Shown: piece after piece, positions 17,164 through 42,298 of the stretch | Layout of the letters: each line of letters begins with the position of its first letter | Position numbering within the stretch: position 1 is the stretch's first letter | NCBI GenBank assembly: GCA_009929275.1 | Contig: SAAW01000008.1 | Span: forward strand, 1-42,453 | Length of the DNA: 42,453 bases | Origin: Clostridia bacterium | GTDB lineage: Bacteria; Bacillota; Clostridia; Christensenellales; UBA1242 | Reading direction: 5' to 3' | Notes under the pieces: generated by a model | Databases searched by the model: none | Seen by the model: only the letters and a program-made list of their open reading frames with translations | Told to the model about the DNA's origin: nothing | Translations under genes and position numbers: made by a program

Positions 17164-17274
17164 AATTTAAAATCCCCTTTTTTTAATGACTTAATATTAA
17201 CATACTTTAAAATTTATTTCAATAGTCAAATTTATATTTTTGTCACTTTTGACTAAAAAATAGCAAAATTGTTG

Positions 17275-19902: not shown

Positions 19903-19965
19903 TCTTTTTTACACCTCATAAATTTTGTTTATTCTGAAATTTGAACCTTTATATTCCACCGCCAC

Positions 19966-22680: not shown

Positions 22681-22842
22681 CTTCTATTTTTTCCTTTTTA
22701 TGATTTTAAGTCCTGCACAAAATTAGTATTAGTCAAATTATAACAAAGTAATTAAAAAAAGTATAATAAATTGCAATTTTTTTTGCTCAAATCTCATTTA
22801 TTTTTGATTAAATAAAATTTTTTTTATTTTATATAAATAAAA

Positions 22843-24828
22843 CTAAATCATAATGTCTTGGATTGTTATCGTTGCAAGGCTTGAAGCCGACGGTGGCACA
22901 AGAATAAGTTCCACAAAGTCAAAAGCATCTCTTGAAAGCGAATAATACTCTGGGTTACTATCATAAATCAAAACAAAATTATCTTTATTAAACTGAACTG
23001 TGCTTATAAAACCATTATTTAATGGATTATCTTCATAAGCATGATAATTTCGAAGTTCTACTTTAGTGTTTTTAGCCTTAAAAATAGCCTTTACATCAAC
23101 ATAAATAACGCCAGATTCAAGATTTTTTATAAATTCATCATTTTCATCATTTATATCAAAATTAATTTTTATTAAACTACTGTTTTCTTTTATATTCCCA
23201 TCAGCATCAACAGATGCAATAGCACTTAAATTTACATCGCCCCATTTATGATAGTATAAGTAAAAAGAGTAAGTTTTTAACAAAGCCATATTTACTTCAT
23301 CGGCTTTAAAGAAAATAGTGAAGTCTGGGAAACTTGTGTTGGTGCTAACAAATAGACTTGTTTGATTATTACTGTTTGAAAAAAACAATGCACTCAACGA
23401 GCAAACAATTTCATCTCCAAAGCCATCTTTTTCAAGAAAATAGCCTTTTGTGGAAGGATATATTGATGAACTATTAGGGTCGTTATTAGCCCCAATATAT
23501 TGGGTAATAATATTTGTCACCAAGGCTACATAGTTCTTAAAAAATGGTGAACTTAAGTCTAGTTTTTCAACGGCGGTTGAGGTGGAAGGGGTGAGTGTGA
23601 AAAATGTTGTTCCAATTATTTCGCTACAAATGGAATATCGAATATAATTTACATCGCCCTGTTGATAAACTAGATCCTCACCTATAGTAGAAGTGACATA
23701 AATAAAAAATTCCATTGAGGAGTCCACAGCTTGTTGGTGAGTTGCTGAACCGTTAATATAATTTTGAATAACATTCATTGCAGTTGTATATTTTGCTGAA
23801 AGAGTTTGTCCTGCTGTTCCATAAGATAATAAACTGCCAGAACCAACCAATATGTTTTTAATGATGAGCATTGCCAAATATTCATCATACTTTTGAATGA
23901 AAACTTCTTTTCTTTTTTGAATATCAGTTTTATTTGTCAACTTTTCAATTAAAGTTTTTGATGCTAATTCAGCATTAGTCAAATGGCAATTCCAAGTTGA
24001 TGATGTAAGCGGAATATATTGCCAAAAAGTATTCATCATTGCTGAAGCATTATCAAATTTAATATTATTTTCTATAGCATTAACATGCGAGTATTGATAA
24101 AACCTTTTTATAAAAGAAATGGGTTCACTAAGAGAATCTCCGCCAACTGTTTGTCCTACAAAAACATAGGCAGTGAAAGTTTCAAAATCAGTAGATTGAT
24201 TTGTTAAATGAAATTTACATACATTGTTAGAACCAATTGGAATTGGATTTTTTTGTAGACCTTCATAATACAAAGTGCTGTTTGTTTTCAAATTAGTAAC
24301 TTTTATATTATTAGCACCATAAATTGAACCAGTTAAATTTCGATTACGAATATAAAACTGCCCGTTTTCATAACCAACAATCATTCCGTCATTTTCGCCA
24401 CTTCCAAGTTCTACATCATAAAGCACTCTTGTAGAACAAATGATTATGTAACTACCACCTACAGTTTTTATATAAAAATTTTTAAAGTTGGACAAGTCAT
24501 CTGCAATAATGATGCTTGAAGTTTCTTCGTTTGCGCTGTCATAACTGCCCGAATAGCCAAATAAAGATTCATAATTAATTGAACCCCAGTTATTACTCCC
24601 ACTTTTTGTTCCATTCGCCATTCCATATTCATCATATAGGTCACTCAAAATCGGGGCTGAGGTGTTCTTCACAATATAATCATAACCTCTTTGAGTGTAG
24701 ACCATTCCTGAATAAATATTTCTTGTGCTACAACCTGTCAAAGCAAAAAGCGACGAGAAAATAAAAATCGTCGTTAGGATTAAACTGTTTAATTTGCTAA
24801 ATTTTTTCCACATTTTTTGCTTTTTCAC
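22843..24828 (-). CDS. Large secreted lipoprotein, T4SS-locus associated
   Basis: Signal LILTTIFIFSSLFALTGCSTRN with lipobox LTGC; 661 aa, no known domain recognised. Confidence 0.75.
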   Translation of the reverse strand: MKKQKMWKKFSKLNSLILTTIFIFSSLFALTGCSTRNIYSGMVYTQRGYDYIVKNTSAPILSDLYDEYGMANGTKSGSNNWGSINYESLFGYSGSYDSANEETSSIIIADDLSNFKNFYIKTVGGSYIIICSTRVLYDVELGSGENDGMIVGYENGQFYIRNRNLTGSIYGANNIKVTNLKTNSTLYYEGLQKNPIPIGSNNVCKFHLTNQSTDFETFTAYVFVGQTVGGDSLSEPISFIKRFYQYSHVNAIENNIKFDNASAMMNTFWQYIPLTSSTWNCHLTNAELASKTLIEKLTNKTDIQKRKEVFIQKYDEYLAMLIIKNILVGSGSLLSYGTAGQTLSAKYTTAMNVIQNYINGSATHQQAVDSSMEFFIYVTSTIGEDLVYQQGDVNYIRYSICSEIIGTTFFTLTPSTSTAVEKLDLSSPFFKNYVALVTNIITQYIGANNDPNSSSIYPSTKGYFLEKDGFGDEIVCSLSALFFSNSNNQTSLFVSTNTSFPDFTIFFKADEVNMALLKTYSFYLYYHKWGDVNLSAIASVDADGNIKENSSLIKINFDINDENDEFIKNLESGVIYVDVKAIFKAKNTKVELRNYHAYEDNPLNNGFISTVQFNKDNFVLIYDSNPEYYSLSRDAFDFVELILVPPSASSLATITIQDIMI

Positions 24829-25946: not shown

Positions 25947-27950
25947 ATGAAGAGATTTTTATACATTCCGGTTATATTTCTTTTATGTCTTGCAGCTGGA
26001 ATTGGCGCAGAATATTATATCACAAATGGTGGCACTGGAGCATTTGAAATTGCCGAACTTTCAAGCGGAATGTTTGTCCCACTTTTTGCAATCGTCGGCA
26101 CAGGAAGTTATATCATATTTTGTTTAAACCACTCTCTCGACAAAAAAGAAAAACCAAAACTTGGGGCTAAAACAAAAGAAGGAGTGGATTTATCTCAATA
26201 TTTCGATTCGCATTGGACAACTGAAAAAGATTTGCAAACTCAAAAACAATTTATGTATTGCACTTGGGAAAATTTGAAAAACAGCCCCGACGGCATTGTT
26301 ATTCGCAGTCAAGTGAAAAATAACAAACTTCACATTAATATGTATAAGGCAATTCACACGATGATTATCGGAACAACCGGCGTTGGAAAAACTCAAAAAT
26401 ACATCGAACCTAGCATACAAATCCTTTCTTCCACTCGCACAAAACCTAGCATGGTCATCACCGACCCAAAGTCAGAACTCTATGGACACCACGCAAACAA
26501 ATTGAGACAAGAGGGGTATGATGTCAAAGCTTTTAATCTTCGTAGGCCATATGAATCGGCAAGATGGAACCCAATGGAAAATTCCTTCTCACTCTATCAA
26601 AACGCCTTCACCCTTTATGACAGAGTTATCACTCATGTGGGCATCAATCCCGCAGATTTAGGGCTTCGTATAATTGCAGAAGAATATGAAAATGAATGGT
26701 ATGAATATAACGGTGTTGCCTATCCAAACAAAGAAACTCTCGACACTGACCTTATTTCCAAAAAAGCGGAATTAATCGACCACGCAGAGAATGAACTGCG
26801 TGAAATTGCAGCAAATCTCTGCCCTGTTGACCCAAACAGTAGAGAACAACAATCTTGGGACAGAGGTGCACAAGAATTTATATATGGAACAATGCTTGCA
26901 ATGCTTGAAGATAGTATGAACCCCGAACTTGGAATGACAAAAGATAAGTTTAATTTCTATAACCTTGCCAAAATTTGCAATTTCAAAGACCCCGACCCTG
27001 AAAATCCATATAGAACTCTCAGGCAATATTTCACAGGAAGGGAAAAATTTAGCAAAGTGCTCTCTCTTGTGTCCACAGCGGTGAACAATGCTCCCACCAC
27101 GACAAAAAGTTATATGGGAATTGTCGCAGCACATATGAGTGTTTTCAACGACAGCGGAATGTGTTATGCAACAAGTTCAAACGAGATTGATTTTAGCAAC
27201 TTTTCTGAAAAACCAACTGCTCTTTTCATCATTTTCCCAGACGAAAAAGTCAATCGTCACGGCATTGTCACTCTTATGATTTCCCAAACTTACAAAAGGC
27301 TTGTTGAACTTGCTGAAAAATATCCCGGAGGAGAACTTCCAAGGACTTGCTATTTCCTCCTAGACGAATTTGGCAACCTGCCAAAGATTGAAAAAATCGA
27401 CTCAATTGTCACTGTTTCAAGAAGTAGAAAGATTTATTTTTCACTCATCATTCAATCATATAGTCAACTATATTCAAAATATGGCGCTGACGTCGCAGAA
27501 ACTTTAAAAGGCAACTGCCCAATTAAGATTTTTATCGGCACTGACGATGCAAAAACTTGTGAGGAATTTAGCAAAACTTGCGGTGACATCACTTTGCAGA
27601 CAACTTCAACCTCTGAAAGCAAGCAAAAAGACAAGGACGGCAAGGAGACTCCAAACAAATCTGTCAGCACTTCCGTCACTTCTCGTCCACTCATCTATCC
27701 CGACGAACTCCGCCACCTCAGCAAAGCAGACGGCACAGGTGAAATGGTTGTGTTTATCTTAAACGAATTCCCTATTCGCACACTTTCAAATCCTTATTGG
27801 CAAACTGTTCAATTTGACCATTCTCGTGCACCTGACATATATGTTGTATCAAAAGCATTAAACGAAGAAAAAGTGGCTTATAACATCATTGAAAGAAATG
27901 AAAAAGTTTTGCACCAAAGACCTTTTCCAAACAGACCAATTAATTTTTAA
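25947..27950 (+). CDS. VirD4/TraG-like type IV coupling protein
   Basis: Walker A IIGTTGVGKTQKYIEPSI, TDPKSELYGHHA, Walker B CYFLLDEFGNLPKI, SLIIQSYSQLYSKYG; N-terminal TM helices. Confidence 0.9.
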   Translation: MKRFLYIPVIFLLCLAAGIGAEYYITNGGTGAFEIAELSSGMFVPLFAIVGTGSYIIFCLNHSLDKKEKPKLGAKTKEGVDLSQYFDSHWTTEKDLQTQKQFMYCTWENLKNSPDGIVIRSQVKNNKLHINMYKAIHTMIIGTTGVGKTQKYIEPSIQILSSTRTKPSMVITDPKSELYGHHANKLRQEGYDVKAFNLRRPYESARWNPMENSFSLYQNAFTLYDRVITHVGINPADLGLRIIAEEYENEWYEYNGVAYPNKETLDTDLISKKAELIDHAENELREIAANLCPVDPNSREQQSWDRGAQEFIYGTMLAMLEDSMNPELGMTKDKFNFYNLAKICNFKDPDPENPYRTLRQYFTGREKFSKVLSLVSTAVNNAPTTTKSYMGIVAAHMSVFNDSGMCYATSSNEIDFSNFSEKPTALFIIFPDEKVNRHGIVTLMISQTYKRLVELAEKYPGGELPRTCYFLLDEFGNLPKIEKIDSIVTVSRSRKIYFSLIIQSYSQLYSKYGADVAETLKGNCPIKIFIGTDDAKTCEEFSKTCGDITLQTTSTSESKQKDKDGKETPNKSVSTSVTSRPLIYPDELRHLSKADGTGEMVVFILNEFPIRTLSNPYWQTVQFDHSRAPDIYVVSKALNEEKVAYNIIERNEKVLHQRPFPNRPINF

Positions 27951-28179: not shown

Positions 28180-28259
28180 ACCAAATTAATTTTTATAAAA
28201 TTAATTTTTTGCTTTGTAAATTTTAATTCTTTTAAGATAAAAATAAAGAGGTGTCTTCA

Positions 28260-31200
28260 ATGAGAAATCATAAATTCAAATCCATCATAACTTCGAGTAT
28301 TTTGTTTTTATTATCCTTTTGTTGTTTTTATTTTGTCGCTCCTAATGCAAGCGAAGTTATCTCTGCAAACGCTTTTTCAAACAGTGTTACAAACACAGGA
28401 ATAACCGAAGACTCAAAGCAATATTCCTACACAAATTCTTCGACAGGAAACATTCCTTTTTCTCTTTTTACCTCTGCCCCAAGTGCCACAAATAATGAAT
28501 ATATTATCACCGACTACCTTCCCACTTTCACGGCGACAACTTCCACTAACAACACCTATTATTACTCAATGAACGACGACACCGTTCCATACATAGTCCT
28601 CTCTTCCAGTTCGCCCGACGACCTCCTCTATAAGACTTTGTTTTTTAGATTTAACGATGCAAATGGGGCAACCACTTCCACAACAGCGCAGATAAATTCG
28701 ATTGCTGTGCAAGGAACAGTTCGCACTGCAAGTTCTGACGATGAGATATCACTTTATTGCCCAACAGACCAGACAACTTCCACAAACACTCGATATTCTT
28801 TCGCTGTGAACCTATTATCACTCGTTACAAATGACCAAGCAAATCCAGACGCCGAATGTCCTTTCGTTTTGGGCGAAACAACTTTAAACAAACTTGGAGG
28901 AAATGGGGCTGAAAATGATGTTTCATTCCGCACAGGACTTTATAGTTTTATTATTAGTTACACCTTCACAAGAAATGGCGCAGTTTCAAATTCTTGTGTT
29001 TTTGAACTTTCATTTTATATTATTGACTACGACGCATATATTGACAATAACACAAACCCACTTATCTTCTCTAACACCGACACCTATCAATATAGAGACG
29101 AGGCAACAAACACAACTTATGACACCGACTACGAACTCTACAACTATAACTATGACGACGAGCCTGTGATTGAATATGACGCAAGCAAATTTGGGCTTGA
29201 TTTTTCTTTCACTTCTGGCAGTAATATATACAATTTCACTTATGCTTCTTTCACCTATAACGTCCCCTCGGGATACACTGGAAAAGTGACACTAGATTGC
29301 ACTATTAACAACTTGCTATATCAATATTCTTTCTATACAAAACAAGTTGGCAATGTCACATATTCTGCCTATTTTGACTTCGCAGATTTTCAAAAAAATA
29401 TGATTGTTAAAAATAGCACTGCATTTAAAACAAACTCTTTTCAAGGGGTGTATGCTTTTTCGCTTAACATTCTCATTCCAACTTCCTCGTCTGAAAATTT
29501 CATCACAATCCCCTCTTTTATTCTCGACGACACAGTGGATGAAACATTAAACTGCAAAAAACTTGCCATTTTTGGCTATGAATTAAAATATACTGACTAC
29601 ACGACATCTGAAAGACTTGCTCTTGTAAAATATGATGACGCGGGAAATCTTATCACCAAATCTTCAGTCGTCGCCAAAAACGACCATTCAGCGAACTATT
29701 ATGTCTCCGTTCCAGAAAGCATCGCCATAACAAACCAAAAGAATTTGCGTTTTGACAATTTTGGCAATTTGACTTCTTCCTACACAGCAAAATATCTGCT
29801 TTTAAATTACAATCAACTTTCAAATGACGACATTTTAAACACCGAAGAAAACTATTTTGGGCTAATCAAATCTTCCACGCCAGAAACCCTTTCTACAAAC
29901 CTTGCGACGCTTGACACTCTCATCAATGCAAGTGATGTCACCTACACACAAGGTTCGCCAATCACCGTCGACGGCATTTACATTATGAAACTTGTTTATA
30001 GTATTTCCATAGACATAGATTTCTCAAATGGCAATTTGTCTTTTCAGGGTTCAAAAAGTGTTATGGGCGAACAATACATCGTCTTTGAAGTGAATAACAA
30101 TATTCAAAAACTTAACATTCAGGCAATTAACACAAGCACTCAATATCTTTATGATTTTAACACCTACACAAATCAATCTGTGAGAATAGGCATTAAAGAT
30201 ATGCCAAACGCGTTTTTTCTGCCAACTGTTGTGAGCTACACTCGTTCGGCAAATTTTAGTAGCACTTCTTCAAATTCAGGTGTTCTCTCTCTCAAAGCAA
30301 ACACCACCTATCTCGTTGACGGAACAAGTTATAGATACTATGTGACAAACAGTTCAAATAATTTCACTTTTAGTCAAGACGGACTATACACCGTGACCAT
30401 TCGAATTGCCACCACAAGCACCACATCTTCCGAAACATACACTTTCTATATCGACAGTGACACAAACAAAATCTCGGGGACAAGTGGTATCACAAACGCA
30501 CAAAAAATCACCCTGAACGACGCTAGCATAACCTCCGCAGTCATCAATGACGGAAAATATATCAAAACGACAGATTATGTTGCAAAAGAAACATCAAGCG
30601 ACCTCTACATAACCGCCGAACCATTCTCTTTGAGTTGGAAACCAAGCGACAGTGGTGCGAGAGAATATTGCTATGTGTCATATATGGAGCAAACAGAGAC
30701 TTCAAACGATTTGTCTTTGTTTAAAGAAAACACTTCGCAATATTGGCTAACAAACAGTTTTGAATTTAGTTCCATTTTAAACAATGTTGAGAGTGGCTAT
30801 GTTAACAGCTACACTTTAAACGTTGGAAGTGAACTTTCTGCAAAAAGTTATTTCAGAAAAGATGGCATCTATTTCTTTTTCATCTACGACCAAGCGGGAA
30901 ACAATTTTTATCTGACTGTGCTTGTGGACAGTTCAAATTCTTCCATTCTTCAAGGCAAATGGGCAAGCACTTCGGAAAATTCTTCGTGGATAAACACTTA
31001 TGACAAGACGAACAACGAGAGCAACTATGTGAACAGCGACACAGTGCTTTATTTTGGCACCCACAAAGCACTTCTCCTTCCCAATCTTTCCGCTGGCACA
31101 GCCGTCACCGTGACCAACCCAAGTTACACTGCTTGCTATGATCTCTCGACAGGAATTTTGGCAACAAAAACAAACTATAATGTGGATTTTTATCAAATTT

Positions 31201-34200
31201 TGAGTGGAATAACTTCATATGTCTGTACAAATTCAACGAGCGACCTTTTGGACTTCGGCGGTGCAAATGCGAATGATATAAACTACTATTTAATCTTATC
31301 AAATACTTCTGTGACTGAATCAACCACATCAAGCACTTTCACCACTCCGTCAACAATCTATCGTTCCGTCATATATAATGTCACGAGCCTAACTGTTCCC
31401 TTTAAAGGCGAAAACAACTATTTCTTCACCGTGACAAACAAAACTGGAGTTGCCACACAAAGACGAATTAATATGAATTTTGACGTTATTCAAGGCACTT
31501 TTTATGCTTATAATTCAATCGGGGAACAATATGTCATCACACAAGGTGCAGGCACAAATCTAAATGTTTTAAAATTTTCATACACAAAAAACAATTCCTC
31601 TGCGGCTTCCTACTATAATGTCGCAAGTTTATATTATGAATATTATAATTTTGCTCTAACCGAAGATGACCCAAACTATTCTTCATCTTCCTATCCATTC
31701 TCTTCATCTGTCACCTATCAAGACAATCTATTTGCCACGCCAGATGAAGGCGGGGTTATATTTAGTGTGGATTCCATCAATGTCACCTATGATTCGGGCT
31801 TGGGACTTAGTGGTGTGACGAAACCTGGAAAATATGTCATCACTCGTGTTTATCAAGGTGGCACTCACAAAAGGGTGGACAACGGCGATGGCACTTACTC
31901 TTTTATCCTTGAAAGTGGTGGGGATTACTACACAAACGATGGTGGTGAAACTTTCATCTATCTTTTCGGTGCAGATTCAAAAGTTCGAAGATACACTGTT
32001 TATGTCGACCACAATGGCATAATAACTGAAGCAACTTCAAATAGAGATGCAGTGGGAGACAACATTTCCATTATTCTTGGCACAGATAACAGCGTTTCAA
32101 ATCAATGGACTTTTAAAGAATTTTATAAAACTTCCCTTGCTGGCAATTCACTCACGACAAACAAAGTGCCAGTTCAAATCAATGTTCCTTATTCAAAATA
32201 TTTTTTAAACACTTCTTCGTCATATGTTTTTTCAAATTTGAATTTTGCAAAACTTAGTGTTAAAATTTATTATAGTTCTGGCACGGCAAACATAACCTAT
32301 GTTTCAAATGTAAACACATATAATGTCTCGACAGGAATGCTAACTTGCTCGGCTCTTGTGAGTTCTAAAAACCCTTCTGGCAACCTCCTATTCTCAAATG
32401 AAGGCAGATATAACGTCGTCATAACCGATAAGACAGAGACAACCCCAACAACCTATTCCTTTGTGTTCTATATCACCTATTCTTCGCCTGAGATTTCTAT
32501 ATATACTCACAGTTTTTCATCTTCAACTTTCAGCAACACCCTCCTCACAAACGAAGATAGTTCAAACAATTTTGCCACAAATATAAAGGCAGTGAACGAC
32601 AGCCCTTCTTTGGAAGATAACAAAATTTATCTCAAATGGAATGACCCAAGCACTCCATACCTTGCTCAAATAGACAAAATTACTGTGAGTGTTCAAAACA
32701 GCGATAGTACGACTTCGTCATATTCCATAATACTTTCCGAACTTAACAAAAACACAATTATTTCAAGTATAAACGGAGAAGTCAATCTCTCGCTTGGAGA
32801 TTCCACTAACCTAATCACTAGCGGGCAATTTGTGCTTTCTTTTCATTTGGCTTACTACAACCCAACCTCTCCATATGAGACTTTTGACAGCAAAAATTAT
32901 TATAGATATTCCTATCAAATGGCTCTTTCCATCGCAAATGAAGTGAAATACACAATCGTTGTTTCCTACATTTCTATCTTAGATAATTCTGAGAGTTATG
33001 ACAGGAACGATGACACAAGTTTTGCCGACTCCACCTACACCGTCACTATTGACAGAACAAAACCAAATGTAAACATAAATCGACTTATAAATTCTGAGTC
33101 GCTTTTAATGCACTATTTTACAAACACAAGCGAATTTAAAGAAGAGAACTATGACTATGAAGCAAATGGGACTTCGTCTGACCCAACTTCACTCACCTAT
33201 GCTTTTGGGATTAACAGTTCTTTCGCGCTGACATACTCTTCAAGTGAGACTTTAAACTATTTCTACATTCGCTCCTATGATAAATATAACGGCGATTATT
33301 CAAGCATCACACCTGATATGATTGACACAATCTACCCCTCCTCGCACGCATATTATGAAAATCAATTATATTTCAGCGGATATCCAAGATTTTCTGAGAT
33401 AAGACTTATAAGCGACACCATAAATATTGGCACAGAAACATACTATAAAATATACTATAATTTGTCCACTTCCCTCTATTCTCTAATTAAGTCAACTCTT
33501 GGCATCGAAAATCCAACTGGATTTTATGAAGTGATTGAAAAAGACTCTGCAGGAAACTATCGCTCTTTCTCTGTGTATTTTTCAAGTTATTCAAACACAT
33601 ATGAAATCATAAATGTTGACGGAATTCACGAAAATGGATATGCCACAATGTCGGGAAATGCAATAACCGCAAAAGAATATTTCACTTTAACTTCCCTTTC
33701 CAGCAGACTTGGATTTGGATATGTCACGCTTCGAAACGAGACTTTGGGCACAAACTTTTCATCTGTCATCGAATTAAGTCCTGTTTCCACTTCCATTTCA
33801 AGTCAAATGCTTACAAGAATTAATGCGTTTTTAACCTGTGAAATCAATTCGCGTTTTAGCTTCACTCTTTCGCGCTATAACTCAACATTCCCTCTTTCGA
33901 CTGTTTATATAAACGTCATCACAAATGATAGCACGGCTTATCTTTCGTCGCCAACAGTGCAAGAGAGCAGTTCGTCCACGGGAACGACTTATAACCTCGT
34001 CCTCACAACCAGCACTGCCACAACTTTCCTATATCTTGAAAGATTTTCACTTTATGTCTATTCAAACAACGCTTGGCAAGCCACTTCGCATATATACACT
34101 TCAAATATCCCAAGCAACATCACTGGTCTTTCCAGTGGCATATACAAAGCAGTGTATAAAGACAACTACAACGCAAATACCTATTTCTTCATTCTCTATA

Positions 34201-36719
34201 TTGGCGAGTTTTATATTAACAATTTCTCAAAAGAAGTCGTATTTTCTTTGCAAAATTACATCTACGACAGTGAAAATAAGATGTATTATAGCGGTGATGA
34301 CGTTCAAATTACATATGAAGCAAACATATATCAAGTGAGGGTCAATGGTGTTTTGTATAGTGGAACAAATCTTGAAACTTTGTCTTCAAAATATTCTTCT
34401 TACAATTGTAAAACTTTCACTCTTTCTTCCGATTATTCCTACAATAATGTTGATGCAGAATACTCTGTCGGTGGCGTGACAACTTATGAGATTGTCTATT
34501 ATGACATCACTGACGGCTCAATTCAAAAGACTTTGAACATAACTATTTTTGACTATCTCCCTGAGATTATCCTCACAAATGAGAACGACGGAAGTTCTTC
34601 CATCACTTCAACCTTGCAAGAAAGTGAATCTCAGATTACAAACGCGATTGTAAACATTGACTATGGCACGATTGGTGGCTGTGCGTATGCAGGTTTGAAT
34701 GATTCAAGCACAAACAATGTAACTGTGGCTAAACTCTACACAAGAAATGATGAGGGCGAATATGCTTCCTATAAGATTATCTCCGCGGGCGAAGTTGTGT
34801 CGGAAGAGGGCTACTATCGCCTTGATATTTCAAACAGCAAACTGGCTAATATGAGGAGTATATATTTTGTCATTCAATTTGGCGACTTCCCTCTCTACAC
34901 TGTCTATGCAAACGAAGCGGAACTTTCGCCTTCATCTCAGGAAATTCTCAATCTTTCCTCCACGACCACGGCAAATAGTTCAAAATTTAACAGTTCGTCA
35001 GCATCACAGACGGTTATCCAAACAATATATCAAGCATTAACTTCGCTTAATACAGCAGGATATCTCAACGACATTGTCGACAGGACAACAAGTTTGCCAA
35101 AAACTGAATATGACATTCTTATCAGTAACTTAGGCTTCACATCTAGCGGAGTTTTTAGTGCTTCTAACATCGGTATTGCGAACATTCTTAATGTGGAGCA
35201 TTTCTATTCAATTTATTCCCCAAGCATAGTTTATAATAGTAATATAAAACTTAATATAATAGAATTTGTGTTCACAAATGATATTCTTACCAACTATTTT
35301 TTAAACGACGAGGGCATAAACACAACCCCATCAAATGTTGGAAGAGATTATTGGACAACAATCTATCTCGTCTATAATTTGACAGGGCCAATTAGGATTG
35401 AACTTTTTGCTTTCACAAAAGTGCCAACAAGCACTTCGCTTATAAGCGGAAATATCTACTACAATTCCACTGAAGTGATCAACCTAACAAGTTCTTCCAT
35501 AACTCTTGAAAAAGTTTTGACAAACAGCGAGATAACTAACAGCACAACTCTGATCAGCTGGAATATGTTGCCATCTGCGGAGACTGCAAAGTGGTTCAAA
35601 CAAGGCAATTTTGTGTATCTTCTTGAACAATATAGCCTTAACGACACCTATTATTCAATCAATTTCGCTGTCAACACAGCAACAAGCGTTAATTCCTCCA
35701 CAATCTCAGGCTCTGGAACGCACAAAATTATGTTTAAAGATATTGCAGGAAACACTCATCAGTTCACCACAAGTTCTTTCGTCAGCGAGAAAAATGTCTT
35801 TAAAATTCATTTGCTCGACCAAGTGATATACTATTTAACACAAGATGAAGAAGATCGCGACCCAATTCAATATGCCATTTTTAACTCCCCTGTTGAAATT
35901 ATTCTCGACCAATATTATTTAAGTCTGCTTTCAAACATTAAAATTCGGGTGACTCTCAACGGAACTTCCACGACAAATTTTACCACAAACGGAAATGTTT
36001 ATACTTTCTCAAATGCGGGCAAATATATCGTCAAATTTGACGGGAAATATAATGGCAAAGATTTGAACACTGCCACCTATAATTTCTCCATAATTAATGC
36101 AAATGCGTCAAGGCTTTCCTTTGAATATCCAAGCATAAAGGGTTATAAAATTACAAAAGTGATTAAAGACAGCAGAAATATCACAAGCAGTATCCTTGCA
36201 AGCGATGGCTCGCTTTTCGTGACGGCCAGTGATAGTCTCAGCGGAAGTGGACATTACACTGTCACTTTAAAATATGGACAGAACGCAAATGATGTCATAG
36301 AATTTTCTTTCCTCATAAGCGAATTTGTCCCAACAATTTCTTGCAACATAAATTATGGGGAAACAACGACTTCCAACATTATTCTTTCTTATAATGGAAA
36401 TTATATATACAGCCAAATCGGGCAATGTAGCATCAATATTTTGGTCTATAATTCCGACAGCAACACTTTCTACACTTATCAAACCATTTCAATTTCGGAC
36501 GCTTCCAGCACTGGGAATTCAACAATCACACTCTCCAATTCAAACTCCTATTTTGTTCAAGTTAAGACAGAGAATGGCAATGTCATCAGCAGTTTTAGGG
36601 TGAACAAAACAGACCCTCTAAACTCTTTTGCAATCATTGCCATAATTATTGCTTCAATTGCTGGCATCGTGCTTCTCATCGTCATCATTAAACTTAGGAC
36701 AAAGATGAAAGTAAGATAA
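28260..36719 (+). CDS. Giant (about 2,819 aa) secreted repeat protein with C-terminal membrane anchor
   Basis: Signal sequence MRNHKFKSIITSSILFLLSFCCFYFVAPNASE; recurring G-x-Y-x-V/I...Y-x-F-x-I Ig-like strand motifs; C-terminal SFAIIAIIIASIAGIVLLIVIIKLRTKMKVR. ATG at 28260 with AAGAGGTG upstream is preferred to the GTG at 28251. Confidence 0.85.
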   Translation: MRNHKFKSIITSSILFLLSFCCFYFVAPNASEVISANAFSNSVTNTGITEDSKQYSYTNSSTGNIPFSLFTSAPSATNNEYIITDYLPTFTATTSTNNTYYYSMNDDTVPYIVLSSSSPDDLLYKTLFFRFNDANGATTSTTAQINSIAVQGTVRTASSDDEISLYCPTDQTTSTNTRYSFAVNLLSLVTNDQANPDAECPFVLGETTLNKLGGNGAENDVSFRTGLYSFIISYTFTRNGAVSNSCVFELSFYIIDYDAYIDNNTNPLIFSNTDTYQYRDEATNTTYDTDYELYNYNYDDEPVIEYDASKFGLDFSFTSGSNIYNFTYASFTYNVPSGYTGKVTLDCTINNLLYQYSFYTKQVGNVTYSAYFDFADFQKNMIVKNSTAFKTNSFQGVYAFSLNILIPTSSSENFITIPSFILDDTVDETLNCKKLAIFGYELKYTDYTTSERLALVKYDDAGNLITKSSVVAKNDHSANYYVSVPESIAITNQKNLRFDNFGNLTSSYTAKYLLLNYNQLSNDDILNTEENYFGLIKSSTPETLSTNLATLDTLINASDVTYTQGSPITVDGIYIMKLVYSISIDIDFSNGNLSFQGSKSVMGEQYIVFEVNNNIQKLNIQAINTSTQYLYDFNTYTNQSVRIGIKDMPNAFFLPTVVSYTRSANFSSTSSNSGVLSLKANTTYLVDGTSYRYYVTNSSNNFTFSQDGLYTVTIRIATTSTTSSETYTFYIDSDTNKISGTSGITNAQKITLNDASITSAVINDGKYIKTTDYVAKETSSDLYITAEPFSLSWKPSDSGAREYCYVSYMEQTETSNDLSLFKENTSQYWLTNSFEFSSILNNVESGYVNSYTLNVGSELSAKSYFRKDGIYFFFIYDQAGNNFYLTVLVDSSNSSILQGKWASTSENSSWINTYDKTNNESNYVNSDTVLYFGTHKALLLPNLSAGTAVTVTNPSYTACYDLSTGILATKTNYNVDFYQILSGITSYVCTNSTSDLLDFGGANANDINYYLILSNTSVTESTTSSTFTTPSTIYRSVIYNVTSLTVPFKGENNYFFTVTNKTGVATQRRINMNFDVIQGTFYAYNSIGEQYVITQGAGTNLNVLKFSYTKNNSSAASYYNVASLYYEYYNFALTEDDPNYSSSSYPFSSSVTYQDNLFATPDEGGVIFSVDSINVTYDSGLGLSGVTKPGKYVITRVYQGGTHKRVDNGDGTYSFILESGGDYYTNDGGETFIYLFGADSKVRRYTVYVDHNGIITEATSNRDAVGDNISIILGTDNSVSNQWTFKEFYKTSLAGNSLTTNKVPVQINVPYSKYFLNTSSSYVFSNLNFAKLSVKIYYSSGTANITYVSNVNTYNVSTGMLTCSALVSSKNPSGNLLFSNEGRYNVVITDKTETTPTTYSFVFYITYSSPEISIYTHSFSSSTFSNTLLTNEDSSNNFATNIKAVNDSPSLEDNKIYLKWNDPSTPYLAQIDKITVSVQNSDSTTSSYSIILSELNKNTIISSINGEVNLSLGDSTNLITSGQFVLSFHLAYYNPTSPYETFDSKNYYRYSYQMALSIANEVKYTIVVSYISILDNSESYDRNDDTSFADSTYTVTIDRTKPNVNINRLINSESLLMHYFTNTSEFKEENYDYEANGTSSDPTSLTYAFGINSSFALTYSSSETLNYFYIRSYDKYNGDYSSITPDMIDTIYPSSHAYYENQLYFSGYPRFSEIRLISDTINIGTETYYKIYYNLSTSLYSLIKSTLGIENPTGFYEVIEKDSAGNYRSFSVYFSSYSNTYEIINVDGIHENGYATMSGNAITAKEYFTLTSLSSRLGFGYVTLRNETLGTNFSSVIELSPVSTSISSQMLTRINAFLTCEINSRFSFTLSRYNSTFPLSTVYINVITNDSTAYLSSPTVQESSSSTGTTYNLVLTTSTATTFLYLERFSLYVYSNNAWQATSHIYTSNIPSNITGLSSGIYKAVYKDNYNANTYFFILYIGEFYINNFSKEVVFSLQNYIYDSENKMYYSGDDVQITYEANIYQVRVNGVLYSGTNLETLSSKYSSYNCKTFTLSSDYSYNNVDAEYSVGGVTTYEIVYYDITDGSIQKTLNITIFDYLPEIILTNENDGSSSITSTLQESESQITNAIVNIDYGTIGGCAYAGLNDSSTNNVTVAKLYTRNDEGEYASYKIISAGEVVSEEGYYRLDISNSKLANMRSIYFVIQFGDFPLYTVYANEAELSPSSQEILNLSSTTTANSSKFNSSSASQTVIQTIYQALTSLNTAGYLNDIVDRTTSLPKTEYDILISNLGFTSSGVFSASNIGIANILNVEHFYSIYSPSIVYNSNIKLNIIEFVFTNDILTNYFLNDEGINTTPSNVGRDYWTTIYLVYNLTGPIRIELFAFTKVPTSTSLISGNIYYNSTEVINLTSSSITLEKVLTNSEITNSTTLISWNMLPSAETAKWFKQGNFVYLLEQYSLNDTYYSINFAVNTATSVNSSTISGSGTHKIMFKDIAGNTHQFTTSSFVSEKNVFKIHLLDQVIYYLTQDEEDRDPIQYAIFNSPVEIILDQYYLSLLSNIKIRVTLNGTSTTNFTTNGNVYTFSNAGKYIVKFDGKYNGKDLNTATYNFSIINANASRLSFEYPSIKGYKITKVIKDSRNITSSILASDGSLFVTASDSLSGSGHYTVTLKYGQNANDVIEFSFLISEFVPTISCNINYGETTTSNIILSYNGNYIYSQIGQCSINILVYNSDSNTFYTYQTISISDASSTGNSTITLSNSNSYFVQVKTENGNVISSFRVNKTDPLNSFAIIAIIIASIAGIVLLIVIIKLRTKMKVR

Positions 36720-36827: not shown

Positions 36828-37979
36828 TTACAATTTTATTTCCACTATTTCACAATTCATATTTTCAAGTTCTCCAAGCAGGCAATTGTAGCAATCGTTT
36901 GAATTGTTTTGTTTTAAAAGTGCAAAAATAGTAACACTTGAGCCATTATCATAAACGGACGCCAGCCTCATAATCTGCAAGCAAAGTTCAAAAGATTTGC
37001 TTTTCACATCAAACATACTATTACCGTTGATATAATTTTGATATTTCACAATTTTCAAAAGTTCGTTCACCAAAACAACAACTTTTTTGCCTTCTTCCAC
37101 CATACGCTTTATTCTCTCAATGAAGAGTTCAATTGTGAAGACATTTTTCTTTTCGCAGTCCCCTGCAAAAGTATGAAAATTGTCAAACTTCATCGGCAAA
37201 TCTTCTGGCAAAACATCAAGAGAAAGACAAAAAACAGAATATTCTTTTGAAATATTTTCAAAACTAGAAAGCATTTTCTTTCTGTTTTTTAGGGATTGAA
37301 CTAACAGAACATTCCTTCCTCCCTCTTGCCATTTCATTTCAAGCGGAGCACCAAGCGAAAAGTTAACATTTGTCTTAACGCTTTTTAAGTCATTAAAATA
37401 TGTTCTATTTTTAAAATCTTTTTCATTTTCAATGTTTATGAGCAATCTGGCATTTTGAGTGTCCATATATTTGCACGTGCATTCAACAAAATCGCCCTCT
37501 CGTAAATTGCAACTTTTAATGAACGAATTTGGCACATGAATTGCTTTTTTAGCGTCGGCAACATAGCCTTTGTTAAACAAAAAACCATAGCCATTTTTGT
37601 CCAATTTCAAAAATCCAGAGTCTTCAATATATTTGGCATTTGAATTTCCAAATTTAATGCCGTCATCTGATAAAGCGAAAAGCCTTCCGTCTAAAAAACC
37701 TTTCACATCGTAATTTTCTTCACTATTTTTTTCTTCAAATCCATTAAAAGCAAATGAGTTGTCTGCATTAACATAAATCTTATTCCCTGCTTTTGGAGGT
37801 CTGCCTTGTCTTGTCTTTGGGAGTTCAGGCTTAACTTCACCCTTCATAATATTCATAATTTTGACTATGAGTTCTTCTTTTTTATATATAGTGGGTGATC
37901 TGACACCCATATCTCTTGCCACATTTCTCAGTTCAAATATGCTGGCGTTTCTCATTGCAATTTCATCAATTTGTTTCAT
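36828..37979 (-). CDS. Rho-like protein with apparently degenerate ATPase domain
   Basis: Rho_N-like SIFELRNVARDMGVRSPTIYKKEELIVKIM; cold-shock-like SGFLKLDKNGYGFLF...IHVPNSFIKSCNLREGDFVEC; ATPase-region synteny with lost Walker residues. Confidence 0.75.
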   Translation of the reverse strand: MKQIDEIAMRNASIFELRNVARDMGVRSPTIYKKEELIVKIMNIMKGEVKPELPKTRQGRPPKAGNKIYVNADNSFAFNGFEEKNSEENYDVKGFLDGRLFALSDDGIKFGNSNAKYIEDSGFLKLDKNGYGFLFNKGYVADAKKAIHVPNSFIKSCNLREGDFVECTCKYMDTQNARLLINIENEKDFKNRTYFNDLKSVKTNVNFSLGAPLEMKWQEGGRNVLLVQSLKNRKKMLSSFENISKEYSVFCLSLDVLPEDLPMKFDNFHTFAGDCEKKNVFTIELFIERIKRMVEEGKKVVVLVNELLKIVKYQNYINGNSMFDVKSKSFELCLQIMRLASVYDNGSSVTIFALLKQNNSNDCYNCLLGELENMNCEIVEIKL

Positions 37980-38127
37980 TTTTCCTCACTTACAATAAAA
38001 TTATACACAAAATTTTTCATTTGTCCATCTTTATTTTTTTAGATTTGAATAATTTTTAACTAATTAATTCAAATTCTTTGTTGACTTTTATAGAAAACAA
38101 ATTTTTAAAAATAAAATTATAGAATAT

Positions 38128-38170: not shown

Positions 38171-39547
38171 CTAAATCATAAGTTCGCCCTCATCTGTTTG
38201 AATGACTCTTAGCACTCGCACTTGTGAACCTGTGTAGGCGTCTATATACAGATAATATTTAAAATTGTCGAATTCGCCGGCAAATTCATAGGCCAAAGTT
38301 TCACCCACATAGTCCAGTGGAATGACGCACAATTTTGTGCTGTCCACAACTAAACTGGTGCTCACAAGAGCCTTTGCCTCACTCTCGGTGATTTGAGCAA
38401 TGAGGTCTTCTCTTTCGGTATGATTGATGGCATAACTCGACGCCTCATAACCAACGATTTCCTCACTTGAAAGTTCAATCTTAACTTTCACAAGGTCTGG
38501 ATACATTATTATATCGTCCACGACAGGAGCAAGATTGACATAACAAATGTTATCCGAACTGGCACTCCACACGCATTTCATATTCTCAAGCCCTCTGTTT
38601 GTGGCAAAAGTCTGCGCAATTTTGACTGCGTTATTTGTCTTCTCGTCTGTGCTGTTCACACTGTCACTTGTCACAGTTTCTCCGCTTGAACTTGTCTCTT
38701 CTTCGCTTACAGTCACAGCCTCCTCAGTTATGTTTGCACTGATGTTTAACAAAAAGCCTCCCCTTTTTGTGATTTGGACATAATAGTTTTTGTCCGCCGT
38801 GTTCACTCCAAAATCATATGTTTCAAATGTCCCCGAAGTGTTTCCTATGAATGTCATATTTGTCATTTTGTCGCCGAAAATACTCTCAATTTTCAGTTCT
38901 GCCTCCGCTTCGTTTATTTCTTCACCTGTTAAACCTTTCACAGTTTTATTCGTCGTCGATGCCGAAAATGGTCCGTCGTAAATCATACTTGGATATTCAA
39001 TGGTGTCATTCACAAAGTTTGAAAATTGAAGAGTGAAATCCCCGCCGTCTTCTCCTGAAATATTTTGTGAAATCATATAACCTTGCATAATCTTTTCCAT
39101 AATTGCATTCAGTTCTTCTTTGATTGATGTCAAACTTAGGTGAACTTGTGACAGAGTCTCAAAATCTTCTCCCTCAATTACTCCGTCTTTATATGTCACA
39201 AGCGAAGTGCAATAGCCATTAAGTTGGTTCATAAAATCACTTGTTTGCGTGAGGATTTGAGCATTGAGTGGCAGAAGGCTCAGCGAATTTTCCGCATCAC
39301 TCGACTGTTGTTTTAGGCTCGTCAAAATTTTTTGTTGCGAAGCGGAGTCATTGCTCACCATCAATTTGCTCATTTCCACTTCCATATTATTTACATTGTT
39401 CACAAGTTCATAAAATGAGCGTTGATATAAATTTTCCAAACTGGCACTTGTTGCCGTCAGGCTTGTTGCAGTTGTGAAAAGATAGATGCCCAAAACTAAA
39501 ATCACACAACTTAATATTGACACTGTTATTATAAATGCTTTTTTCAT
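38171..39547 (-). CDS. ypeB: Germination protein YpeB
   Basis: N-terminal TM, 458 aa, directly downstream of SleB; C-terminal PepSY-like repeats (ESEAKALVSTSLVV...; AVKIAQTFATNRGLENMKCVWS). Confidence 0.8.
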   Translation of the reverse strand: MKKAFIITVSILSCVILVLGIYLFTTATSLTATSASLENLYQRSFYELVNNVNNMEVEMSKLMVSNDSASQQKILTSLKQQSSDAENSLSLLPLNAQILTQTSDFMNQLNGYCTSLVTYKDGVIEGEDFETLSQVHLSLTSIKEELNAIMEKIMQGYMISQNISGEDGGDFTLQFSNFVNDTIEYPSMIYDGPFSASTTNKTVKGLTGEEINEAEAELKIESIFGDKMTNMTFIGNTSGTFETYDFGVNTADKNYYVQITKRGGFLLNISANITEEAVTVSEEETSSSGETVTSDSVNSTDEKTNNAVKIAQTFATNRGLENMKCVWSASSDNICYVNLAPVVDDIIMYPDLVKVKIELSSEEIVGYEASSYAINHTEREDLIAQITESEAKALVSTSLVVDSTKLCVIPLDYVGETLAYEFAGEFDNFKYYLYIDAYTGSQVRVLRVIQTDEGELMI

Positions 39548-39561
39548 TCTTTTTCTCTCCT

Positions 39562-40239
39562 TTAAAGTGCAAACACATGGTCGCCAATCGTCGTCACAAC
39601 TTGCCTAGAATAAATCCAACTGCTTGTGGAAGTTGACGGATTATAGAAAAACAAACACCCGTAGGTGGGGTCCCACCCGTTCATTGCATCTCTTGCAGCA
39701 TTGTAAGCGGTGGTGTCTGGTTCATAGTTTATCTGCCCGTCCGTCACCGATGTGAATGCCCAAGGCTGATATATCACACCCGCTATGGTGTTTGGAAAAC
39801 TTGAACTCTTCACTCTGTTTAAAATGACTGCTGCCACGCCAACTTGCCCTGCATATGGCTCACCTCGCGCCTCTGCATGCACACATTTCGCGAGAAGATA
39901 GAGATCACTAGACGATTGAGAACTAGAACTGGAAGAACTCAAACTTATGCCAATGGCTGCCGCCGTCTTTGAGCCAACAATTCCGTCGACGACAAGTCCG
40001 TTATTTTTTTGAAATTTCTTTATTGCCGCAATGCTTATTGGCCCCAAAATTCCATCGACCGCACCCGTGTAGTAACCCCAACTCTTCAGCCTTTGCTGAA
40101 TAATTTTGTTTTGAGATGTGGTTGTTGCGACTTCCACAACCTCATTTTTTAGTGGCATTGAAATGTAGTTTGTAACAACATAAGATATCCCCATAACAAA
40201 GCACAGACAGACTGCCAAAACAACCAAAAATCTTTTCAT
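39562..40239 (-). CDS. sleB: Spore cortex-lytic enzyme SleB
   Basis: Peptidoglycan-binding repeat QQRLKSWGYYTGAVDGILGPISIAAIKKFQKNNGLVVDGIVGSKT and hydrolase_2 DLYLLAKCVHAEARGEPYAGQVGVAAVILNRV. Confidence 0.93.
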   Translation of the reverse strand: MKRFLVVLAVCLCFVMGISYVVTNYISMPLKNEVVEVATTTSQNKIIQQRLKSWGYYTGAVDGILGPISIAAIKKFQKNNGLVVDGIVGSKTAAAIGISLSSSSSSSQSSSDLYLLAKCVHAEARGEPYAGQVGVAAVILNRVKSSSFPNTIAGVIYQPWAFTSVTDGQINYEPDTTAYNAARDAMNGWDPTYGCLFFYNPSTSTSSWIYSRQVVTTIGDHVFAL

Positions 40240-40254
40240 ATTCCCTCCAAATTA

Positions 40255-40722
40255 TTAAAAGATTCGGCTTTTATAAACAGCAGTTTTTTCGCCACATTCC
40301 ATAACATAATAATCTCCGTCGCCCGCGCCCTCTCCTAAAATAAGCAAAAGTTGATGATAATTCCCCGCTTTTAAAGTGACATTTAGGATAGTTTCTTCTT
40401 CAAAAAACTTGCAAGATAATTCTGCCGAACTTTTATAATCAAAATTATTTTGTGCAAGAATTTCGTTTGCTATTCCACAAATATTTTTTAAATTTTTTTT
40501 AAGATAATTTATAACTTCATCAGTGTTTGAAAGAAGAGGAGAGAGAAAACTACATAACTCCTCTTTCACCTGATTTTTTGCTCTTTCATCGCTCACATTT
40601 GAACTATTTGCAACAATATGTATCCTCACATAACTCTCGCCCTTTTCGCCACAAGATAGTCCCAAAAGAACAACTGCCAAAAGCAAAATGCTCAAAAAAA
40701 ATATGGCAAACAATCTTTTCAC
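40255..40722 (-). CDS. spoIIR: Stage II sporulation protein R
   Basis: YVRIHIVANSSNVSDERAKNQVKEELCSFLSPLL typical SpoIIR N-terminal motif. Confidence 0.85.
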   Translation of the reverse strand: MKRLFAIFFLSILLLAVVLLGLSCGEKGESYVRIHIVANSSNVSDERAKNQVKEELCSFLSPLLSNTDEVINYLKKNLKNICGIANEILAQNNFDYKSSAELSCKFFEEETILNVTLKAGNYHQLLLILGEGAGDGDYYVMECGEKTAVYKSRIF

Positions 40723-40777: not shown

Positions 40778-42298
40778 TTAATTATTTTCACTTTCTTTTC
40801 TAAAATATGCCACAATTTTTTCTTCATCTGCCAAAGGAAGCGTCAATTCTCCGTTTTGCTCCACAAGTTCTGCCGTTGAGATGTTAAGTTCTTTTGCAAT
40901 GTCCCACAAAGTTTGACTTGACTTTGCAAGATAGATTTCCATTGCATAATCTCTTTCGGGCTTATCTTCACCAAGTGCAATTTGCGAAGTAATTGCGGAG
41001 GTTGACAGTGATGTTTGACTTATGTCCACCTTCACTTCTGCAAAGATTTCGAGTTCTCTGCCGTGTTTCACCTTGACACTGATGTCCCCCAGCACTGCCT
41101 GTGAAACAATTTGGTCACTTTCTGAAATTTCTGCTAATTTAAGAGAGATTGAGTATGGAACTTCGACATCAAGCGAGTTAAGAACATTGTTTCCGTCAGC
41201 ATCTTCGCTGTAATATATAAGATTGATGTTTGCAAGACCTTCAAGGACAACTTCGCTGTTTTTCACAATTTGATTTAAAATGGTTATGTATGTTGGAGTC
41301 GTTGCAAGAAGTTTGTCAATCTGTGGAATACTCTCGCTAAGCGTAAAGTTTGTTAAAATATTTTCGTCTGCTTGCTTTGTTGAAGCAAATTCTCCCACAC
41401 TGAAAGATTCCGTCGTCAAATTCACTTCATTTTTCAAACTATAAGCGTCAATCACTGTTTTTGTGCAATTTTTATTATAAACTTGGGCAGAAATGGCAAT
41501 CGGAACATCAAAAACGAACATATTTTTGTCGCTATTTTCGGTTGAAACAGCCTCTTTTGTGAAAATTAATGCTTGAATATTGCTCTCTTTTGTTGTGCCT
41601 TTTGCCTCAATTTCCTCTGAAAAGTTGTTTTCTTTAACTATGCTTCTAATGCTTTTGTCTTCCGTTTCATAGATTATGGAACTAAACACCGTCCCACTCA
41701 CCACAAAATAGTCGACAGCGGAAATGACAGATTTAATTGTGGCACTATTTTTGACAAACAAAATCTTGGCAATCTTGCTGTCTTTTGAGAGTTCAAAGTT
41801 AATCACGCCATCATATTTCACATCTGTCACAAGAGAATTGAAGCAGACCTCGCACTCCCGCACAAACACTCCTTCTGGCATAACAGCATTTCTAACTTCG
41901 CAGTTTTTTGAGATAATATTAATGTTGAATTCAATTGTTGAAGATAAATGCAAACTTTCGTCACCGCCACCGCTAGAATTTAATTCCGAAAGCAACAAAT
42001 CTGCACAAATCGCACTGTTTTCTGAAATCTCACTGTTTTCAAACACTTGGGAAAATTTTGCTTTTTGAGTTAAAGGAGTGATCTCGTTGTCCTCTAAGAC
42101 GACGAGTAAATCATAATCAATCTCCCCTTCTAATATCACTTTTCCAGCAAAAATAGTGGTTGTTTCCAAATTTGGTTTGGCAGAAAGTGTCAAGACTTTG
42201 ACAATTTTGACGTCGCCACTATAATCTTGCTGGTTTTTAATCTGCACAGTCCCCACATTTTTTTTCAAAGCAACTTCAAGTTTTTCATTATTATCCAT
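40778..42298 (-). CDS. sipL: SipL-like SPOCS (DUF3794) protein with C-terminal LysM
   Basis: About 506 aa, SPOCS-like repeats and C-terminal YLAKSSQTLWDIAKELNISTAELVEQN (LysM). Confidence 0.75.
   Translation of the reverse strand: MDNNEKLEVALKKNVGTVQIKNQQDYSGDVKIVKVLTLSAKPNLETTTIFAGKVILEGEIDYDLLVVLEDNEITPLTQKAKFSQVFENSEISENSAICADLLLSELNSSGGGDESLHLSSTIEFNINIISKNCEVRNAVMPEGVFVRECEVCFNSLVTDVKYDGVINFELSKDSKIAKILFVKNSATIKSVISAVDYFVVSGTVFSSIIYETEDKSIRSIVKENNFSEEIEAKGTTKESNIQALIFTKEAVSTENSDKNMFVFDVPIAISAQVYNKNCTKTVIDAYSLKNEVNLTTESFSVGEFASTKQADENILTNFTLSESIPQIDKLLATTPTYITILNQIVKNSEVVLEGLANINLIYYSEDADGNNVLNSLDVEVPYSISLKLAEISESDQIVSQAVLGDISVKVKHGRELEIFAEVKVDISQTSLSTSAITSQIALGEDKPERDYAMEIYLAKSSQTLWDIAKELNISTAELVEQNGELTLPLADEEKIVAYFRKESENN

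Follow-up and report, generated by a model that had tools for sequence, protein, structure and literature searches.

The gene at 36828-37979 on the minus strand of the window, by which we mean the whole 42,453-nucleotide stretch analysed here, is in our estimate, with a probability of about 0.93, a vertically inherited rho that has turned into a selectively maintained pseudoenzyme: the only Rho of its genome, and one whose motor is dead. The window is an entire contig of a genome of 1.18 Mb that is 95% complete, and the family to which it belongs, small-genome gut bacteria of at least 42 genera, lives without a Rho motor.

The reading frame is uninterrupted over 383 codons from an ATG start (Table 1), and several lines of evidence tie its product to Rho. 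Two NCBIfam Rho models match it with E values of 6e-17 and 1.6e-14, the bit scores of 61.5 and 53.6 lying under the curated cut-offs of 315 and 509. Among Pfam families, Rho_RNA_bind is matched over its cut-off (E 5.3e-9) and Rho_N below threshold (2.1e-4), in keeping with an earlier note on this DNA that had recognised both the Rho_N and the cold-shock RNA-binding parts. An AlphaFold2 model built on 40 aligned sequences has a pLDDT of 83.4, mostly above 90 in the folded core, and the predicted structure has the Rho fold, with an N-terminal domain, an RNA-binding fold and a RecA-like ATPase. Rho accounts for all of its top PDB matches (E 2.6e-18, probability 1.00); rmsd is high over the full-length structural alignments, which we take to reflect domain orientation, and over about 290-300 aligned columns the superposition is at 3.1-3.9 Å. 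The protein also bears some likeness to the short-form paralogue NF041509 (paralog_Rho2), being a shorter Rho-like protein with a weak match to that profile, but at 39 bits it falls far under the cut-off of 628, and it is the sole Rho-derived protein of its genome rather than an extra copy.

The catalytic motifs were read from an alignment with 11 same-order canonical Rho proteins. Walker A has R for Lys and K for Thr, the catalytic Glu is replaced by V and the Walker B Asp by N, and the protein ends before the arginine-finger column, which is a gap in a genus-weighted 58% of the family. At the primary RNA site aromatics are kept at two positions and the Arg, Asp and Tyr are lost; across the family, most residues of this site are unconserved. 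The earlier note had listed four replaced motifs in an intact 383-residue frame with a Rho fold, and a stop that precedes the arginine finger and C-terminal region. All four replacements are present and align with the P-loop, DERPEEV, Walker B and GGSLT regions of same-order canonical Rho, the alignment confirms the position of the stop, and the frame and the fold were borne out as well. The comparison with canonical Rho (TIGR00767/NF006886) is thus two-sided: the position is orthologous, the Rho_N, cold-shock-like and ATPase-like folds follow in the same order and the predicted structure matches, whereas the protein has no Walker A, lacks both the catalytic Glu and the Asp of Walker B, stops short of the arginine finger and C-terminal region, has an eroded primary RNA site and scores far under the family cut-off.

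Table 1. Features of the pseudo-rho locus in window coordinates.
Feature	Position	Strand	Remarks
Pseudo-Rho gene, 383 aa	36828..37979	-	Sole Rho-derived gene of the genome
Rho_N helical module, residues 6-45	37845..37964	-	Near-invariant LR..(A/G)R..GV..PT..KK..LI
Basic AT-hook-like motif KTRQGRPPK, residues 55-63	37791..37817	-	
Variable linker	37635..37790	-	Predicted disordered; residues 59-111 have pLDDT <50
Cold-shock-like RNA-binding fold, residues 116-183	37431..37634	-	Fold kept; most primary-site residues unconserved in the family
ATPase-like core, residues 206-383	36831..37364	-	Fold kept; catalytic residues, arginine finger and C-terminal region gone
Erased P-loop, residues 219-236	37272..37325	-	EGGRNVLLVQSLKNRKKM where GKGQRxxIVxPPKAGKT is expected
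Erased catalytic loop, residues 252-261	37197..37226	-	LSLDVLPEDL for LLIDERPEEV; catalytic Glu replaced by Val
Erased Walker B, residues 299-315	37035..37085	-	KVVVLVNELLKIVKYQN; Asp replaced by Asn
Promoter-like TGGACA-16-TATAAT, 11/12	38000..38027	-	48 nt before the start codon
ypeB (spore germination)	38171..39547	-	Conserved upstream neighbour
sleB-like cortex hydrolase	39562..40239	-	Conserved neighbour
spoIIR	40255..40722	-	Conserved neighbour
SipL/LysM protein	40778..42298	-	Conserved neighbour

The same condition extends through the family, from which we aligned 95 sequences of 39 genera with the 11 canonical Rho proteins and some intermediates. Only four of the 95 keep both the Walker A Lys and the Ser/Thr, all of them from genus g2, where the P-loop still reads GPKGSGKT or GPKKSGKT in an intact-looking core and Lys replaces the catalytic Glu (DKRPE) in every one. 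Erosion is graded: none of the five scored catalytic features is left in 50 of the 95, and in other genera the P-loop, arginine finger and C-terminus are gone. The shorter pseudo-Rho proteins of g5 and g8 (L070, L071, L075-L077), which keep part of the ATPase-like core and have no GRPPK hook, appear from what they retain to be on a different trajectory of decay. The alignment shows that motor chemistry would be impossible in nearly all family members. The lesions are shared by same-genus relatives whose ORFs are full-length, and the family holds about 180 relatives more; since these lesions recur in intact frames, chance, a sequencing frameshift and an assembly error are ruled out. A scan of the collection places the relatives of pseudo-Rho among metagenome-assembled Clostridia from the gut. 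Of two named genera that NCBI places in Christensenellales, Candidatus Onthoplasma carries the dead form, Candidatus Ornithoclostridium a canonical Rho; how they relate to our family grouping we infer from the similarity of their sequences.

Searches of the window's own genome found no Rho over the TIGR00767 cut-off and nothing over that of PF00006, the latter returning just a weak fragment of another protein. The TIGR00767 cut-off was reached by none of 149 sampled family genomes, and an independent ATPase model agrees for the family genomes in which it was run, its one exception being the g2 protein, itself partly degraded. A hidden canonical Rho is ruled out by the two independent profiles in the genome itself and by TIGR00767 in the family. 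A relative of pseudo-Rho is present in 190 of 199 family genomes, and in 131 of the 134 of good quality. Across the order sample the cut-off was passed by 78 of 121 genomes, all 78 from other families, and several of those not over it hold fragments or score just below. We also note that two rotary-ATPase-type (PF00006) subunits are found in most genomes of the same genus; none was found in the window's genome, which is possibly incomplete, and none was seen in many other genera of the family.

These searches bear directly on two functions that the earlier note had proposed when it called for a check for a second rho, namely that the protein acts on a canonical Rho hexamer as a dominant-negative partner or as an antiterminator. 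The fold is indeed similar, but the dominant-negative role is unsupported, as neither its own genome nor any of the 149 family genomes offers a canonical Rho for it to poison, and an RNA-binding antiterminator is weakened by the lack of any Rho termination to oppose and by the unconserved residues of the primary RNA site. Such action on a Rho partner, which we find hardly credible, is refuted unless a canonical rho lies hidden in the unassembled sequence of every family genome.

The order sipL-spoIIR-sleB-ypeB precedes pseudo-rho in many genera of the family, as it does in the window, and the arrangement spoIIR-sleB-ypeB-DUF1934-rho is found in related families, with a canonical Rho in one genome (G249) and a damaged one in another (G068). 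Because this neighbourhood is shared with the rho of related families, the dead gene is the old rho in its old place and not an extra copy; by position, it is orthologous to the resident rho. The same neighbourhood, kept in many genera, could be taken to point to a role in sporulation or germination. We consider such a role improbable, since the position is ancestral and, with DUF1934, also accommodates canonical and damaged Rho, since pseudo-rho has a promoter-like site of its own, and since several genera retain the gene without the sipL, spoIIR, sleB or ypeB neighbours. Most other members of the genus have a promoter-like site some 52-55 nt ahead of the start, and sites with at least 10 of 12 matches occur upstream of pseudo-rho in 45% of cases, as against 11% in shuffled sequence. 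A scan by a G+C-rich rule detected no terminators around pseudo-rho.

Convergent with pseudo-Rho lies a gene for a giant protein of 2822 aa (28251-36719, plus strand), rich in Ser, Thr, Asn and Tyr and with a C-terminal membrane helix. Relatives of the giant protein adjoin pseudo-Rho in much of the family. That pseudo-Rho is a locus-specific regulator beside this giant surface gene is nevertheless not the reading we favour: in many genera no giant gene is recognisable within reach, and the more telling neighbourhood is sipL-spoIIR-sleB-ypeB-rho, ancestral and common to the Rho of related families. Elsewhere in the window we observed a TraG/TraD-like conjugative coupling protein (25947-27950, plus strand; Pfam T4SS-DNA_transf, E 1.2e-45), a homologue of which also adjoins the pseudo-Rho of genus g28 (L106, L107), and four long ORFs of 834, 875, 904 and 661 aa at 14659-24828 on the minus strand, the one scanned, at 22843-24828, having no clear Pfam family.

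Selection was measured by the Nei-Gojobori method on non-overlapping pairs of close relatives, a simple method whose results are unreliable at dS above about 1. Over 13 pseudo-Rho pairs (dS <2) the median dN/dS is 0.11, and in the ATPase part alone, the last 190 residues, it is 0.125; the same part gives 0.002-0.011 in close canonical pairs. In most pseudo-Rho pairs the N-terminal module has a lower dN/dS than the ATPase part, the reverse of what is seen in canonical Rho. Conservation, expressed as the genus-weighted frequency of the commonest residue per column, follows the same division. Dead and canonical proteins are alike in Rho_N (0.60 and 0.59) and in the hook region (0.46 and 0.44), whereas the RNA-binding fold falls from 0.59 in canonical to 0.29 in dead proteins and the ATPase part from 0.84 to 0.26. 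As the canonical proteins come from many families and the dead ones from a single family, any bias would raise conservation in the dead set; that Rho_N is equal and the other parts drop is a contrast within the same proteins. As read from these alignments, the pattern shows selection to act mainly on the N-terminal Rho_N-GRPPK module.

The retention of pseudo-Rho by purifying selection, and with it its status as a pseudoenzyme, is therefore strongly supported. The earlier note had envisaged a maintained pseudoenzyme and had named dN/dS across orthologues as a check; the median of 0.11 gives no sign of relaxed selection, and fold retention, loss of catalysis, family-wide intact frames and a ratio that is well under 1, the dead ATPase part included, together uphold that view. 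Recent decay is ruled out by dN/dS. Slow decay, in which Rho is no longer needed and the gene is gradually disappearing as a pseudogene, would fit the graded erosion, from the intact-looking core of g2 to proteins without P-loop, arginine finger and C-terminus, and also the fast divergence, identity among same-genus pseudo-Rho being only about 40%. We judge it very improbable all the same, given that most of the 190 matching genomes still have an ORF of about 300-490 codons, that dN/dS is far below 1, that conservation of Rho_N and the hook matches that in true Rho and that promoter-like sites persist.

The conserved module consists of LR..(A/G)R..GV..PT..KK..LI followed by (K/R)xGRPPK, and it is ancestral, since many canonical Rho proteins of the order also have it. 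Within the AT-hook-like core (K/R)xGRPxK the genus-weighted conservation is 0.93 for G, 0.89 for R, 0.87 for P and 0.72 for K. The Pfam AT_hook model, which is very short and whose weak matches are dropped by filters, was not reported for the window protein at E values up to 1, and the GRPPK tail qualifies as an AT-hook solely by its motif. The hook is absent or altered in g5, g8, g15 and g30, where Rho_N is mostly kept.

The module also occurs on its own, in proteins of about 100-160 aa with a C-terminal tail that is charged and probably helical. Of 120 family genomes sampled, 7 have such copies at a distance from the main gene (G016, G021, G042, G141, G160, G143 and G124); beyond these seven, G151 has a further module ORF of 195 aa, and the other families yielded one short module ORF (G244, 131 aa). 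Four copies were inspected in detail. Examples of about 95-130 aa, away from the main locus, are L215:4442-4831, L216:4642-4956, L217:4275-4562 and L206:4022-4327, the last of which comes from a different record, a named contig. Where their neighbours can be identified, the free-standing modules lie among ordinary chromosomal genes. Use of a Rho_N nucleic-acid-binding module without the Rho motor has a parallel in RHON1, a Rho_N-only protein of the plant plastid, which the small free-standing proteins resemble; RHON1 is not derived from a resident rho gene, however, and the window protein retains a whole dead ring domain. The basic (K/R)xGRPxK motif beside a small helical module likewise recalls AT-hook-like DNA binders, such as the HMGA AT-hook and the QGR/RGR motifs of H-NS and Lsr2, although pseudo-Rho has one hook per protein and its DNA binding is putative. 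We know of no homology between this hook and HMGA, H-NS or Lsr2.

A similar decay of Rho has occurred in at least two other families of the order, and probably in four, as judged from the motifs of their members. Family f29 has both canonical (G249, G269) and dead (G088, L129; G287, L132) members, and f4 has a canonical member (G307) and two that are divergent or dead (G063, L133; G254, L134). Since these families hold canonical members, their decay must be independent of that in the window's family, unless canonical copies were re-acquired. Both sequences examined from f32 (G091, L130; G271, L131) look dead, and in f9 the protein of G068 (L137) has a damaged P-loop, PPKTDPTT, and an altered catalytic loop; in these two families, too, the decay probably arose independently. 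G088 also retains Rho_N and a GRP hook. No Rho match at all was found in three genomes of f13 (G072, G099 and G277), and they have apparently lost rho outright; a canonical Rho is present in another f13 genome, G258.

Selection still preserves the motor-dead Rho, and so it probably has a new, non-motor job. Taken whole, the account in which a motor-dead, maintained Rho acts as a passive nucleic-acid binder is one we moderately favour; the binding mechanism in itself, suggested by the pattern of sequence constraint, has about an even chance of being right. The Rho_N-GRPPK module would grip AT-rich DNA or nascent RNA, with the dead ring domain as a scaffold, perhaps for oligomerisation. Pseudo-Rho would then coat or mark transcripts or DNA, neither translocating nor stripping RNA polymerase, and termination would be left to intrinsic terminators. 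The contribution of the dead ATPase part is left vague by this account; that part is under purifying selection within genera and must do something. In a more specific and unlikely version, the protein would be a silencer that coats AT-rich DNA or transcripts in a role like that of H-NS or Lsr2, with the dead ring oligomerising and copies of the module budded off. If so, a whole family would have converted a termination helicase into a silencer, and the free-standing modules would be small chromatin- or RNA-binding proteins.

The main rival to passive binding is a motor-less termination or pausing factor, which would dock on RNA polymerase or NusG together with nascent RNA and slow or trap elongation without ATP hydrolysis. 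It is a minority possibility in our view. NusG is kept in nearly all family genomes tested, but it also has Rho-independent functions; the entire protein, dead core included, is under purifying selection, yet among what is unconserved or absent are the primary RNA-site residues, the GQR-loop Q, the arginine finger and the C-terminal region. Purine content has been considered as well, Rho-less species having been predicted to lose the purine bias of their genes (PMC13323073). With simple ORF calls and about 6-33 kb of ORF sequence per genome, the overall purine content is 0.557 in the family and 0.534 in Rho-positive relatives, not lower but confounded by low GC, and the wobble purine fraction is 0.496 and 0.491, respectively. 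That coding-strand purine content is not relaxed could suggest that pressure on pyrimidine-rich transcripts remained. The test cannot discriminate, however, as the Rho-positive relatives likewise have no wobble purine preference; the absent drop gives no support for a loss of termination and does not decide the matter.

Outright loss of rho has been described in several Bacilli (PMC13323073) and in cyanobacteria (PMC13289151). Those lineages resemble the present family in having cells without a Rho motor and differ from it in that the gene here is kept, motor-dead and under selection. Homology surveys that require the ATPase would miss pseudo-Rho; in one study, for instance, two Rho sequences were discarded as having no convincing ATPase hits and not being reciprocal best hits of E. 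coli Rho (PMC11829017). In the literature searched, which did not take in the principal overview of Rho diversity (Moreira et al., 2024), we came across no account of a motor-dead Rho that is maintained.

The usual picture of Rho is of a motor that a lineage either has or has lost; here a motor-dead descendant is kept under selection. This amounts to a natural separation of Rho functions, in which what stays conserved must be useful without ATP, and it bears on how much of Rho's cellular role needs translocation. The family is also a natural set of genomes for the study of termination and antisense suppression without Rho.
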